DNA from: Thiotrichales bacterium
Lineage (GTDB): Bacteria > Pseudomonadota > Gammaproteobacteria > Thiomicrospirales > Thiomicrospiraceae
Length of the DNA: 35,791 nt
Direction of reading: 5' to 3'
Assembly (NCBI GenBank): GCA_022759035.1
Contig: JAEMQD010000150.1
Span: 1-35,791, forward strand
This document shows positions 15,736 to 34,630 of the stretch, piece by piece. A program made the position numbers and the translations under genes. Under the pieces are notes generated by a model that saw only the letters and a list, made by a program, of their open reading frames with translations, searched no databases and was not told the origin of the DNA. The number at the start of each line of letters is the position of its first letter. Position 1 is the stretch's first letter.

Positions 15736-16686
15736 ATGGATATTAATTCAATTAATAAAACAGCGAACTTAGTGCATAACAATCAAATGAGTCTGATGAT
15801 TTTTCAGATGCGCTTAGATTTTGGTGGTAAGGCACCAACCTTTTATGGGGTTAATGTCTTTAAAGTGCGCGAAGTCATTGAAGGTAAACGTTTTCCTGTA
15901 GCAGAAACACCCAACGCCCATCCTTTAATTGAAGGGATGATTCAATTGCGTGGCAATTTTATTCCAGTTATTGATATGCCAACTTGGTTGGGTTGCCCAA
16001 TGACACCAGAAGAAAAAGAAAAATCGGTCATTATTGTCTCAGACTTTTCTCACAACATTGTCGGTTTTCGTGTTGCTCATATTCATGGCGTAGAAGAAAA
16101 AGAGTGGAATGAATTACAAGCAGCTGAAAATGTCAATTCTAGCGGCGTCAACCGTGTTGTTAACCAAACCAAGGTCAAACACAATGGTCAAGATGAGCTG
16201 TGTTACATTCTTGATGTAGAAAGCTTGCTGATAGAATGCATGCCCGATATGGCAGAAAAATTGCGTCCAACACTTACTGCTGCAAGCTGGAAAAGTTTTT
16301 ATGAAGGCAAGCAGCTGTTAGCTGCGGACGACTCTAAAGCCATTCGCGGGTATTTATCAACGGTATTTGAGCAACTCGGTATTCCGAATCGCATTTTTGA
16401 TGATGGTAAGCAGTTGATTGATTACATGCAAACCCTGAAAGATGCTTCGGGCATTTCCGCTATTGTGACTGACTTAGAAATGCCAGAGGCTTCTGGGCAT
16501 ACGGTTATCAAGTTTATTCGTGCAGATAATCGTTTCAATAAATTGCCAATTTCGGTACATAGCTCGATGACTTCAGAGAATAACGCTCGTGATGCTAAAA
16601 AACTCGGTGCCGATTTCTTTATTGGTAAAATTGATACCGATGAAATTACGCGCACCTTAGAAGCAATGACAAAAATAGTACACTAA
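15736..16686 (+). CDS. cheV: CheV-type chemotaxis coupling protein
   Basis: A 316-residue fusion of an N-terminal CheW domain (about 15-170, with YGVNVFKVREVIEGKRF and LIEGMIQLRGNFIPVIDM) and a C-terminal receiver domain (about 195-315). The receiver keeps the phosphorylation set: acidic pair in LLAADDSKA, phospho-acceptor Asp in IVTDLEMPE, the hydroxyl position in SVHSSMT and the Lys in FFIGKID. CheV links chemoreceptors to CheA and tunes adaptation. No other chemotaxis gene is visible nearby, so it serves receptors and a kinase encoded elsewhere; a pilus (twitching) pathway is as likely as a flagellar one. The AGAAAGGAAAA ribosome site before the ATG is strong. Confidence 0.9.
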   Translation: MDINSINKTANLVHNNQMSLMIFQMRLDFGGKAPTFYGVNVFKVREVIEGKRFPVAETPNAHPLIEGMIQLRGNFIPVIDMPTWLGCPMTPEEKEKSVIIVSDFSHNIVGFRVAHIHGVEEKEWNELQAAENVNSSGVNRVVNQTKVKHNGQDELCYILDVESLLIECMPDMAEKLRPTLTAASWKSFYEGKQLLAADDSKAIRGYLSTVFEQLGIPNRIFDDGKQLIDYMQTLKDASGISAIVTDLEMPEASGHTVIKFIRADNRFNKLPISVHSSMTSENNARDAKKLGADFFIGKIDTDEITRTLEAMTKIVH

Positions 16687-31134: not shown

Positions 31135-32283
31135 TTAACGCGGGTAGGTTTCAATATCTGGGCTCGTGCGATATTGATACGGCTTTGCTTCACTATTCGT
31201 TTGTTTTAATTGTATGATCTGTTCTTTTAAAGCGGTTTGTAGCGATTTAATTTCGCCTATGTCCTGACGTAAGCGCGCAATTTGCTCTAAAACAACTTTG
31301 TTGTCAGGATGACTGACGATTGTTGCAGTGGTTGGTTGTGGTGTAGCTGTTTGCGATACAACGGTAGGCGTTGCTTTTGCCAATTTAGCGCTAATTTTTT
31401 CGTCTATATTTGCAGGCAATTGACCAAGTTGTTGCTGCATTTCTTGTTGGTTTTTACTGAAACTTGCTTCAAGTTGGGTGAGTTGATTTTGTAATTCGAC
31501 AAGCTTGTCTGCAACTTGTGTATTCACCACATTGTTGTTTACAGTTTCGTTTGTCGCTGTTGTTACTGGTTTAGTATCATTTATCGGCTTGTCCATTGTG
31601 TTTGTTGCTGCGGTAATGACTGGTGCTTCTGTTGGTGTCGTCGAGCTGTCAGTTTTTTCTTCTATAGCGTGCTGTTCGCTAGATTGTGTTTTTACGTTGT
31701 TAGGCGTTAGTTGATCTAGTGATGCTTGCATTTGTTCGATGGTGCTGGCAAGTTCATCCATTTTTAATGTGAGTGTTTTGCTTACAAGGCTTTGGTGTTC
31801 ATCCACATTCTCCAACACACTGTTAGACATGCTTATAAAACCAGCACGGCTCTGGAGCATAACACCAATCGTTGTGCCGAATCCAGCAATGGCAATAACG
31901 CCGCTAATAACGGTCAGGATAATGACATTTTTTTTGGCAGAATTAACTTCTTGTACCGCTTGTCGTGTCGCGTGTCGCCAGCCGCTAGCGGCATCAACCA
32001 GTTCTTTAATGCTTTCGCTCTGAGATTTGGCAAGATCCAGGTTTTTCTGCGCAATTTCTTGTGCTGTTTGCGTTCCATCTTGCAGTGCAAGACTTGCTTG
32101 CTCAATCACATTTGCCCAAGTGTGGCTAGCTTCTAGCGCATTATGTTCGAGTGTGTTTGCGCTAGCCTCCATAATACGCTCTGCTTTCGCTTTACTTATG
32201 TTTCCTGAGGATGCGAGTGTTTCTAATTCGGTTGGGTTGTCCATTAAGCTGTCTAATTCGTCTAAATAGTTGCGATTCGACAT
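31135..32283 (-). CDS. Unrecognised single-pass membrane protein with coiled-coil flanks
   Basis: I do not recognise this 382-residue protein. Residues 1-115 are soluble and helix-rich, with Ala, Glu and Gln heptad-like spacing. One membrane segment spans about 119-144 (NVIILTVISGVIAIAGFGTTIG), preceded by KK, which suggests a cytoplasmic N terminus and a periplasmic C terminus. Residues 155-192 and 256-290 look like coiled coil. Two Thr/Val/Pro-rich linkers (about 195-255 and 302-325) separate them, and a last coiled coil (about 329-362) ends in a short polar tail. There are no cysteines. The ATG at 32283 has AAGGAG; an upstream GTG lies too close to it. It follows the acidic gene by 21 bases and is last in its operon, before a strong terminator. 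A scaffold or tethering role is only a guess. Confidence 0.75.
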   Translation of the reverse strand: MSNRNYLDELDSLMDNPTELETLASSGNISKAKAERIMEASANTLEHNALEASHTWANVIEQASLALQDGTQTAQEIAQKNLDLAKSQSESIKELVDAASGWRHATRQAVQEVNSAKKNVIILTVISGVIAIAGFGTTIGVMLQSRAGFISMSNSVLENVDEHQSLVSKTLTLKMDELASTIEQMQASLDQLTPNNVKTQSSEQHAIEEKTDSSTTPTEAPVITAATNTMDKPINDTKPVTTATNETVNNNVVNTQVADKLVELQNQLTQLEASFSKNQQEMQQQLGQLPANIDEKISAKLAKATPTVVSQTATPQPTTATIVSHPDNKVVLEQIARLRQDIGEIKSLQTALKEQIIQLKQTNSEAKPYQYRTSPDIETYPR

Positions 32284-32304
32284 AGTGCACACTCCTTTTT
32301 TAAG

Positions 32305-33231
32305 TTAAAGTTGTGCGAGTTGTTGGCGCAAACGCGCATTTCTTGCACTAATATCATCTGTTTTTTGCGCAACTTCGCTTGCTTTTCTGCGCCACGTGTC
32401 GGCAGACCAACCCAAGGTTTCAGGTGTTGCCAATGTTGTTCCTAGAGCTTGAGCAATATGATTGATTTCTTCGTATTTGGTGTTGTTCAACTGTTCTGCT
32501 AATTGCTGTTGTTGATGTGTTACTGTGTCTAATAATACATCAAGTTGTGCTAAGTTTTGTTGCGGTCCTTTTTCTTCGCTTTGTTGGCGAAGTTCAAGCC
32601 AATCTTGTAATGCTTGGATGGCGTTAGCAACCACTGCGTGCAAATGTCCAGCAATATTGTCGGAAGGGCTTACTGCCGCTGATATTTCACCCGCAACAGG
32701 TGTTGCTACCATGCTTGTTGCTGTGTCATCTAGTGCTATAGGTGCTTCATCTGCCACAAGATCAGTTGTTTCATTGTCATCTTGGTCAGGTGTTGGAATA
32801 ACTTCTTCACCCAATACTTCTTCATGGCTTTCCATTGTTTCTACTACTGGTTCATTATCAGTAGATGGCATCATGGTTGTTTCATCTGTTGTATCGAGCG
32901 ATGCTTCATCAGCTTCAAGCGTAACCGATTCATCATTGCTGATGTCCAAGTCAGACAATGCATCATTTGCATCACTAGCCACTTCTAAAATATCGACATC
33001 GGTAACGTTGTTTTCAGATATTTCTGGCAACTCATCATCAGCGCTATTTATTTGTGCTAGCATCTCATTGTCTAATGACAGCGAGTCAATGTTAGCTAAC
33101 TCAAGATGCTCCAGTGCTGCCTCTTCTGTTGAGGGCGTGCTGGCTGTTTCTGTTTCACTCGCAGCATTTTCAAACATTTTTAGCATTGCTTCAGTTGCAA
33201 GGGCATCATTATCCAACGGTTCGGTTGACAT
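32305..33231 (-). CDS. Unrecognised highly acidic protein with C-terminal helical domain
   Basis: I do not recognise this 308-residue protein. Residues 1-190 are rich in Asp, Glu, Ser, Thr and Ala and look disordered; between K18 and R215 there is not one Lys or Arg (196 residues). The C-terminal part (about 192-308) is different: predicted helices with IQALQDWLELRQQ, a Gln-rich stretch (HQQQQLAEQL), a Trp-containing segment (LGWSADTWRRKASEV) and a basic coiled-coil-like end. No signal peptide or membrane segment is visible, so it is probably cytoplasmic. GGAGAC before the ATG is a reasonable ribosome site. It is 21 bases upstream of the membrane-protein gene and 20 bases after the EamA gene. 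The adjacent pair suggests that the two products work together. Confidence 0.75.
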   Translation of the reverse strand: MSTEPLDNDALATEAMLKMFENAASETETASTPSTEEAALEHLELANIDSLSLDNEMLAQINSADDELPEISENNVTDVDILEVASDANDALSDLDISNDESVTLEADEASLDTTDETTMMPSTDNEPVVETMESHEEVLGEEVIPTPDQDDNETTDLVADEAPIALDDTATSMVATPVAGEISAAVSPSDNIAGHLHAVVANAIQALQDWLELRQQSEEKGPQQNLAQLDVLLDTVTHQQQQLAEQLNNTKYEEINHIAQALGTTLATPETLGWSADTWRRKASEVAQKTDDISARNARLRQQLAQL

Positions 33232-33251: not shown

Positions 33252-34148
33252 TTACCGGTGTTTATCGGCAGGAATCATAATAAATACAGCCAATCCAAGC
33301 AAAATAAGGCATGCTCCGACCATTAAATAGGGCGTTATGGGTTCGTTATTCACTAACGCACCCCATATTAACGCCAAAGTTGGCGCTAATAAGGTAATGA
33401 AGCTGCTCATTGTTGCAGAAAAGATCGTTAATACTTTGTAGTAAAGCAAAAATCCTGCCAAAGAGCCGATAACACCGAGATAAATGATGGCATAAGCAAC
33501 ATTATTTGTGACATTGCTTGGTATGCTGAATCCATTTAGCCACCAAAAACATAATGTCATTGGAATGGCAATGAGTAAGCCGCCCATAACAGTGTCAACT
33601 GGTGCTAACGTCACCTTAGTGCGTTTTAGTAAGCTGGCACTTAGTGCATGAAAAAAAGTAGAGGCGAGCATAGCAATAATTGACCAAGTCATTGTGTCTT
33701 GTAGTTGGTGTTTGGGGTCGTGAAAAATAATCCATAATCCGTAGATAGCTAAGATAATTCCAAGCCAATGCCATAACTTAAGATGAAGGCTACGAAAAAT
33801 AACCCCTTCCAGTATGCCTGTAAAAAGTGGCGCTAAGCCAAAAATTAAGGCGATCCAGCTAGAAGGGAGTTGCTGTGCGGCCAAATAAACGAGTGACATG
33901 GATAATCCGATACCGAGGCCGCCGACAGCAAAATGTGTTGGCCATGCCGAGGTAGCAAGGGGAAGTGGACGTTTTTGATAAATAAACCAAATTGACAATA
34001 GTATTAATGAAAGCAACATTCTTAGACTGAGGCTTAAGAAAGGGTCAATGGTTTGGTTACTAATAACAATGGCAAGCGGAGTGGTCGACCAAATGAAAAC
34101 AACGGAAGCAAAAATAGCCCAAGATTGTGGAGCTATTTGGGTTTGCAT
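33252..34148 (-). CDS. EamA/DMT family transporter
   Basis: A 298-residue inner-membrane protein with ten hydrophobic segments in two similar halves, the plan of the drug/metabolite (EamA) superfamily. Typical stretches are SWAIFASVVFIWSTTPLAIV at the N terminus, the end of the first half around ALIFGLAPLFTGILEGVIF, and SFITLLAPTLALIWGALVNNEPIT in the second half, where EamA proteins have a comparable P-x-x-A-x-x-x-G block. The C terminus is short and basic (PADKHR). Substrate cannot be predicted; EamA proteins export amino acids, metabolites or drugs. The start codon overlaps the stop of the asparaginase-like gene (TAATG), so expression is coupled. Confidence 0.85.
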   Translation of the reverse strand: MQTQIAPQSWAIFASVVFIWSTTPLAIVISNQTIDPFLSLSLRMLLSLILLSIWFIYQKRPLPLATSAWPTHFAVGGLGIGLSMSLVYLAAQQLPSSWIALIFGLAPLFTGILEGVIFRSLHLKLWHWLGIILAIYGLWIIFHDPKHQLQDTMTWSIIAMLASTFFHALSASLLKRTKVTLAPVDTVMGGLLIAIPMTLCFWWLNGFSIPSNVTNNVAYAIIYLGVIGSLAGFLLYYKVLTIFSATMSSFITLLAPTLALIWGALVNNEPITPYLMVGACLILLGLAVFIMIPADKHR

Positions 34149-34630
34149 TATGATTGCCGAACAAAAACGGCTTGTTGTTTGTCTTTTAATACATTGTTTG
34201 CCGTAAAGTATTCTCCTTGCATGGCAATGTAAACGCCCGGTGCTAAGGTTTGTGCTAGTGCAATTGCATAGCCTAGATTAAAACTAGCATCACTTTGTCC
34301 AAAAGCATGTGGGCGCATTGCTCCTGTTAGCACTAAGGTTTTATCACTAATAACTTCTTGTAAAAAACGCGCTGTTTCGGTCATGGTATCCGTGCCATGT
34401 ACAATAACAATGCGGTCGCTATTGCTTTCGCGACAGGCAGTTAAAATTTGCATACGATCTGCAAGCGTTAATTCTAAGCTGTCTTTTTGCATGAGTGATA
34501 AAAACTGATGCGGTGCGGTCATTCGTGCTTGGCTAATTAGAGTTGGAACACAAGAGTGTGTAAAGTGTAGGTTGCCATTAACAAGATTATAGTCTTTATC
34601 GAAAGTGCCGCCTGTTGCAATAATAAGCAT
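34148..34630 (-). CDS. Half-length asparaginase-like protein (N-terminal domain only)
   Basis: A 160-residue protein equal to the N-terminal domain of bacterial L-asparaginases. It keeps the residues that domain normally supplies: the nucleophile position T9 in IIATGGTFDK, the T80-D81 pair in VHGTDTMTETA, and K97 just before VLTGAMRP. The C-terminal domain (about 150 residues) of full enzymes is missing. The downstream gene starts at its stop and is a different family, so this is not a local frameshift. Short asparaginase-domain proteins of this size occur in other Proteobacteria, so it is likely intact. Activity is uncertain, because the full enzyme's active site also uses residues from a partner subunit. 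Starts two bases after the YciI-like gene. Confidence 0.82.
   Translation of the reverse strand: MLIIATGGTFDKDYNLVNGNLHFTHSCVPTLISQARMTAPHQFLSLMQKDSLELTLADRMQILTACRESNSDRIVIVHGTDTMTETARFLQEVISDKTLVLTGAMRPHAFGQSDASFNLGYAIALAQTLAPGVYIAMQGEYFTANNVLKDKQQAVFVRQS

Follow-up and report, generated by a model that had tools for sequence, protein, structure and literature searches.

The window analysed here (the whole stretch of 35,791 nucleotides) carries, on one strand and with small gaps, the genes ispZ, yciI, a short asparaginase-like gene and eamA, followed by two adjacent genes, here called A and M, whose function is the question raised by this locus. A first-pass annotation could not name a family for either protein, and proposed that they form a tether or scaffold between cytoplasm and periplasm with a soluble partner, possibly acting at the division site or the cell pole. 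Both open reading frames were found as described, with M lying downstream of A at a distance of 21 bases (an alternative in-frame GTG occurs 9 bases 5' of the ATG of M), and neither protein has a Pfam or NCBIfam family at cut-off. Matches in Pfam, NCBIfam and PDB to DUF4618, ZapB, MCP, SMC, syntaxin and designed coiled coils were below cut-off or reflected generic coiled-coil similarity, and A and M are not paralogues of each other (hhalign probability 5.5%). The asparaginase-like gene (window 34148-34630) encodes only 160 aa, corresponding to the N-terminal asparaginase domain alone, and has the same length in two related genomes (L036 and L037). The window also encodes a CheV-like protein with a CheW and a receiver domain (15736-16686), away from any flagellar cluster. 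Coordinates of the main features are given in Table 1.

Table 1. Location of the A/M pair and associated features in the window, and of related genes in other loci.
Feature	Location	Strand	Basis or remark
Gene A, acidic soluble protein, 308 aa	33231..32305	minus	ORF, ATG start
Gene M, single-span inner-membrane coiled-coil protein, 382 aa	32283..31135	minus	ORF, ATG start
Membrane span of M, ~residues 116-144	31852..31938	minus	Hydropathy windows starting at residues 116-126
C-terminal aromatic motif of M, KPYQYR (family PYSYR)	codons 31168..31185	minus	33-protein alignment; Y369 invariant
EamA-type transporter gene, directly 5' of A	33252..34148	minus	Pfam EamA; L037 synteny; genus-specific context of the pair
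Doubtful sigma-54-like match TGGCAGGATTTTTGCT	33445..33460	minus	Pattern scan; ~229 bases upstream of A, inside eamA
Short partner gene 5' of shortened M	L063:7635-7964 (G029), L065:7326-7661 (G015)		109-111 aa, conserved A domain missing
M2 (paralogue of M), examples	L157:4179-5336 (window's own genome, G000 contig C18), L159:4824-5840		
FlgP-like gene of the window's genome	L157:3540-4067		
Small secreted coiled-coil proteins of the M2 cluster	L168:6612-6890, L162:5706-6137, L159:3625-3915		

The two proteins differ in layout. Residues 1-197 of A contain 53 D/E and one K/R (net charge -52 by charge count), and are followed by a helical C-terminal domain (~198-308). The helical domain of the first-pass annotation is therefore confirmed, and its acidic "tail" turns out to be the N-terminal and central part of the protein. 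Across orthologues, A begins with a short conserved motif (DALATEAMLKMF, of the DD.ATQEMLxM type), continues with an acidic linker that varies strongly in length and has almost no K/R, and ends with a conserved, leucine-zipper-like segment, as indicated by the alignment of C-terminal domains and by leucine-zipper-type matches among orthologues. In one orthologue (G023, L064:9479-10417) the acidic region includes a long array of perfect LDEVAE hexapeptide repeats in tandem. M has a single hydrophobic span with K115/K116 at its N-terminal side, so residues 1-115 should be cytoplasmic and the last ~235 residues periplasmic. An alignment of 33 M proteins revealed a short DDLLDELE-type motif at the N-terminus and, just ahead of the span, an invariant R103 in the helical cytoplasmic part. 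The span is followed by a conserved K.DELAS.IE helix, by a low-complexity linker whose length varies, and by a second coiled coil leading to the C-terminal aromatic motif.

Because A and M share one frame in the window, we modelled the segment between the end of A and the start of M as a single read-through chain with AF2, using orthologues as alignment. In the resulting model the end of A consists of helices, and M residues ~31-192 form one continuous helix through the membrane; together with hydropathy, this agrees with the layout first suggested for M, namely a single span, a helical cytoplasmic part and a coiled-coil periplasmic part. The helices are fairly confident and their relative placement is not (pTM 0.32 for the window and 0.29 for one orthologue), and at a pTM of about 0.3 the models neither support nor exclude contact between A and M.

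To what extent the pair is conserved was examined by profile searches. M was detected in 60 of 63 Thiomicrospirales genomes and the C-terminal domain of A in 57 of 63, and a comparison of the coordinates of both searches placed all 57 detected A genes directly upstream of M; homologues that are rarely neighbours, which would have spoken against a pair, are thus not what the survey found. A class-wide search with the M profile covered 369 genomes, four of them from the window's family, and no full-length relative of M was found in the other 365 gammaproteobacterial genomes. Matches outside the order were weak and mostly limited to the coiled coil, and one that covered the span region is set among pseudopilin and rhomboid-like ORFs. 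Single-sequence searches gave M matches confined to the window's family, and a plasmid search gave none. The named loci with relatives belong to Thiomicrorhabdus, Hydrogenovibrio and Thiomicrospira, which is the basis for assigning the order as Thiomicrospirales. In other genera the pair follows rne, a low-molecular-weight phosphatase gene and an RluA-type synthase gene; in the window's genus it lies in the ispZ-yciI-eamA neighbourhood. G015 and G029, which belong to one genus, have a short M and a short partner that lacks the A domain, and have kept FlhA (FliF was checked in G015 only). Since orthologous adjacent pairs occur throughout the order, the arrangement is more than chance, and on the evidence of these searches A and M are a true conserved pair specific to Thiomicrospirales.

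The region upstream of A suggests how the pair may be regulated. The motif TGGCAYN6TGCT, which corresponds to the -24/-12 consensus of sigma-54 promoters, is located 15-160 bases upstream of A in 26 of 32 loci. Each of the ten named loci has a match in the equivalent position. The 1.0 Mb of sequence in the 32 loci, both strands counted, contains 32 matches, compared with ~1.6 expected from base composition, and 26 of them are the ones upstream of A. The strict motif is also present 5' of flgB (L169) and of a FliS-like gene (L246, in G001); one further copy lies ahead of an unrelated gene, and several fall within genes. In Vibrio, flgBC, fliS and flgP are driven by sigma-54 (PMC6504787). A sigma-28 motif was not clearly enriched upstream of A. 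Pattern scans detected no intergenic sigma-54 site in the window's genus, nor in L063 and L065, the two loci with the short partner. The match TGGCAGGATTTTTGCT in the window has a near-identical copy in L036 and L037 and is doubtful, as it is explained at least as well by the coding sequence of eamA. Judged from the motif, the pair appears to be under flagellar-type sigma-54 control in most loci, the window's genus not being among them.

Weak additional matches of the M profile led to a paralogue, M2, which aligns with M over 88 columns comprising the span and the following periplasmic helix (hhalign 97.6%, E 4e-12). M2 has an almost invariant DLDSIDALLDE motif at its N-terminus, an acidic cytoplasmic part, one span, the homologous periplasmic helix, a linker and a coiled coil, and its C-terminus is of the YQY..P type in most genera. 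Throughout the order, the gene order is a pepN-like gene, an LppC-like gene, M2 and a gene for an LPP20 (FlgP-like) lipoprotein, and an LPP20 match lies within 1.5 kb of M2 in 52 of 55 genomes. An apparent absence of M2 from G015, G029, G063 and G083 proved wrong, as a diverged M2 is located beside the FlgP-like gene. In three loci (L159, L168 and L169) the M2 cluster adjoins PilZ-flgN-flgM-flgA-cheV, and in L169 the cheV side continues into flgB-flgC-flgD. Small secreted coiled-coil proteins are also encoded in M2 clusters, and in two of the loci listed for them in Table 1 the C-terminus is an aromatic-proline motif (RYSFP, AYTFP) that recalls how M and M2 end. It is possible that the aromatic C-termini of M, M2 and the small secreted protein represent a common docking signal or address a common site.

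We then considered the distribution of the pair in relation to that of the flagellum. Among the Thiomicrospirales genomes, FlhA is missing in exactly three (G007, G070 and G081), which also lack FliF (present in six others that were checked), and none of the three has an intact M. In G007, A, M, M2 and any LPP20 lipoprotein are all absent and the RluA and phosphatase genes have been kept. G070 has frameshifts in both M and M2, and its FlgP-like gene ends early beside a transposase-like sequence, the neighbouring ORFs for A, SerS and the LppC-like protein being intact. M of G081 is frameshifted at a different site, again among intact neighbouring ORFs, and M2 and LPP20 were not found in this genome. 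Thioalkalimicrobium cyclicum (Thiomicrospira cyclica) ALM1 has been described as non-motile (PMC4891895). M is not intact in 3/3 flagellum-less genomes versus 3/60 flagellated ones (G001, G075 and G061), which corresponds to a one-sided p of 5e-4 if the genomes are treated as independent. G070 and G081 are related (their SerS proteins are 89.7% identical), so only two independent losses of the flagellum are certain, though the lesions in M differ. Both genomes are only 86-88% complete. As far as the genome sequences allow, loss of M goes with loss of the flagellum.

The three flagellated exceptions are of different kinds. The nearly complete G061 has FlhA and FliF, and frameshifts interrupt each of its genes for RluA, M, M2 and PilZ (L161 and L162); these splits are probably base-call errors, and gene loss was rejected as their explanation because RluA, PilZ and M2 are split as well, although the genome was nevertheless entered as lacking an intact M in the above test. 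The pair is absent from G075, which is 79% complete. G001, which belongs to the window's genus, is 97% complete and has FlhA and FliF, has neither A nor M, and its ispZ locus was not found within the 42% of the genome that was examined. A flagellated genome without the pair implies either that the flagellum can do without A and M or that the pair is located in an assembly gap.

Taken together, a flagellar association of some kind is probable and well supported for A and M. The explanation we favour is more specific: the pair would be an accessory scaffold that spans the envelope at the polar flagellum, A acting as the cytoplasmic partner. We give this form of the proposal an even chance. M would form a rod in which cytoplasmic helices pass through the single span and continue as a periplasmic helix, followed by a flexible linker and the second coiled coil, and its conserved aromatic C-terminus would dock on a periplasmic or outer-membrane partner. 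As M2 has the same layout and is encoded beside the LPP20/FlgP-like lipoprotein, the role proposed for M, which it might share with M2, is to bridge the space between the inner membrane surrounding the motor and a disk of the FlgP type. The acidic protein A is predicted to dimerise via its C-terminal zipper and to have an extended disordered acidic region; it may bind the cytoplasmic part of M and so connect it to cytoplasmic flagellar or polar components. The sequences themselves show the pairing, its restriction to the order, the topology, the sigma-54-type promoter, the joint loss with the flagellum, and the homology of M2 and its linkage to FlgP; the contact between A and M, the docking through the C-terminal motif and a position in or beside the motor are our inference. 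A flagellar role for the window's own pair rests on homology, since the window's genus has neither the usual promoter nor the usual location; the usual rne/RluA location is itself not a flagellar cluster.

Accessory scaffolds determine the torque of polar motors and how many stators they carry, and every lineage has a set of its own. Such periplasmic scaffolds are known to be lineage-specific and anchored in either the inner or the outer membrane (PMC7990780, PMC13023049). The H-ring of Vibrio (FlgP, FlgO and FlgT), whose parts are sigma-54-dependent (PMC6504787), and the FlgP basal disk of Campylobacter are likewise lineage-specific accessory periplasmic parts of polar motors, and M2 lies beside an LPP20/FlgP-like gene. 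In contrast to FlgP, FlgO and FlgT, A and M have no match to these families (including no match of either protein to the LPP20 domain, PF02169), and M would be a rod anchored in the inner membrane, half of it cytoplasmic and with its partner on the cytoplasmic side. The motor scaffolds FlbB, PflB and FlgY, which lie close to the inner membrane, are also membrane-anchored or periplasmic and surround the MS ring, and FlbB and FlgY contain a coiled-coil rod (PMC13023049, PMC7990780); M matches none of them in sequence, has neither a recognised head nor a TPR domain, and possesses a large cytoplasmic part. The E-ring has been reported to be absent from gammaproteobacteria (PMC13023049).

The main rival explanation is that the pair organises the cell pole, A being an acidic scaffold of the PopZ or HubP type and M its polar membrane anchor, so that the flagellum (perhaps with chemoreceptors) would be placed by the pair without the pair being part of the motor. 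PopZ has an acidic disordered middle and an oligomerising helical end, and A, with its N-terminal motif, acidic and probably disordered linker of variable length and oligomerising C-terminal helices, resembles it; conservation across the lineage is also in favour of such a hub, and flagellum-linked loss and a sigma-54 promoter would fit it equally well. However, the PopZ C-terminal domain had no Pfam match in A or in 31 A domains, searches of Pfam and NCBIfam gave no hit to FimV/HubP (LysM plus FimV C-terminal domain), and G015 and G029 tolerate a short partner that lacks the C-terminal domain. The tie of M2 to FlgP, an outer-membrane component of the motor, favours the motor scaffold. The pair may act at the flagellated cell pole. 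A pole-organising hub we regard as rather unlikely. The pair might instead belong to some other machine of the cell pole or under sigma-54 control, for instance type IV pili or a chemosensory array, which disappeared along with flagella in non-motile lineages. Sigma-54 controls non-flagellar genes too, and loss of motility could take pili and chemotaxis together; yet M2 lies within a FlgP/flagellar cluster and the same promoter motif precedes flgB and the fliS-like gene, which makes such a machine improbable.

The division-site role of the first-pass annotation, which would make the pair comparable to the lineage-specific AdvA/Aeg1 of Acinetobacter, draws on the operon with ispZ in the window and on a layout (cytoplasmic part, one span and periplasmic coiled coil) that is common in divisome proteins. 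Like AdvA/Aeg1, M is a lineage-specific gammaproteobacterial envelope protein, but AdvA, which is essential for division, is described as having a DUF4175 domain and two spans (PMC7481262), whereas M is dispensable and has one span and no DUF4175; a relationship was rejected on these grounds of domain and topology. Several genomes lack the pair or carry a broken version of it, and these cases track the flagellum; the ispZ neighbourhood is confined to the window's genus, the pair following the RluA-type gene elsewhere. With the loss, the sigma-54 promoter and a paralogue in the FlgP/flagellar cluster all pointing to the flagellum, a division scaffold appears very improbable. The idea of a scaffold with a soluble partner fared better, being consistent with the finding that an acidic soluble protein and a coiled-coil protein with one span occur together. 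An envelope- or RNA-metabolism pair tied to RNase E, the low-molecular-weight phosphatase and the RluA-type pseudouridine synthase would account for a synteny kept in nearly all genera, but A and M have their own sigma-54-type promoter downstream of rluA, G007 keeps these neighbours without the pair, and the window's genus has the pair elsewhere, so we consider this the least probable explanation.

Our literature search found no studies of motor accessory parts in Thiomicrospirales. If A and M are indeed an accessory scaffold of the polar flagellum, rods of M and M2 might span the distance from the cytoplasm to a FlgP-type outer disk and would then represent a new kind of trans-envelope flagellar structure, with the acidic, largely disordered dimer A having no counterpart in any studied motor; this is a tentative and somewhat doubtful extension of the scaffold proposal. 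In this order, whose members are sulfur oxidisers of the sea and of soda lakes, a candidate set is made up of A, M and M2 together with the LppC-like protein and the FlgP-like lipoprotein, and families of hypothetical proteins thereby become flagellar candidates.
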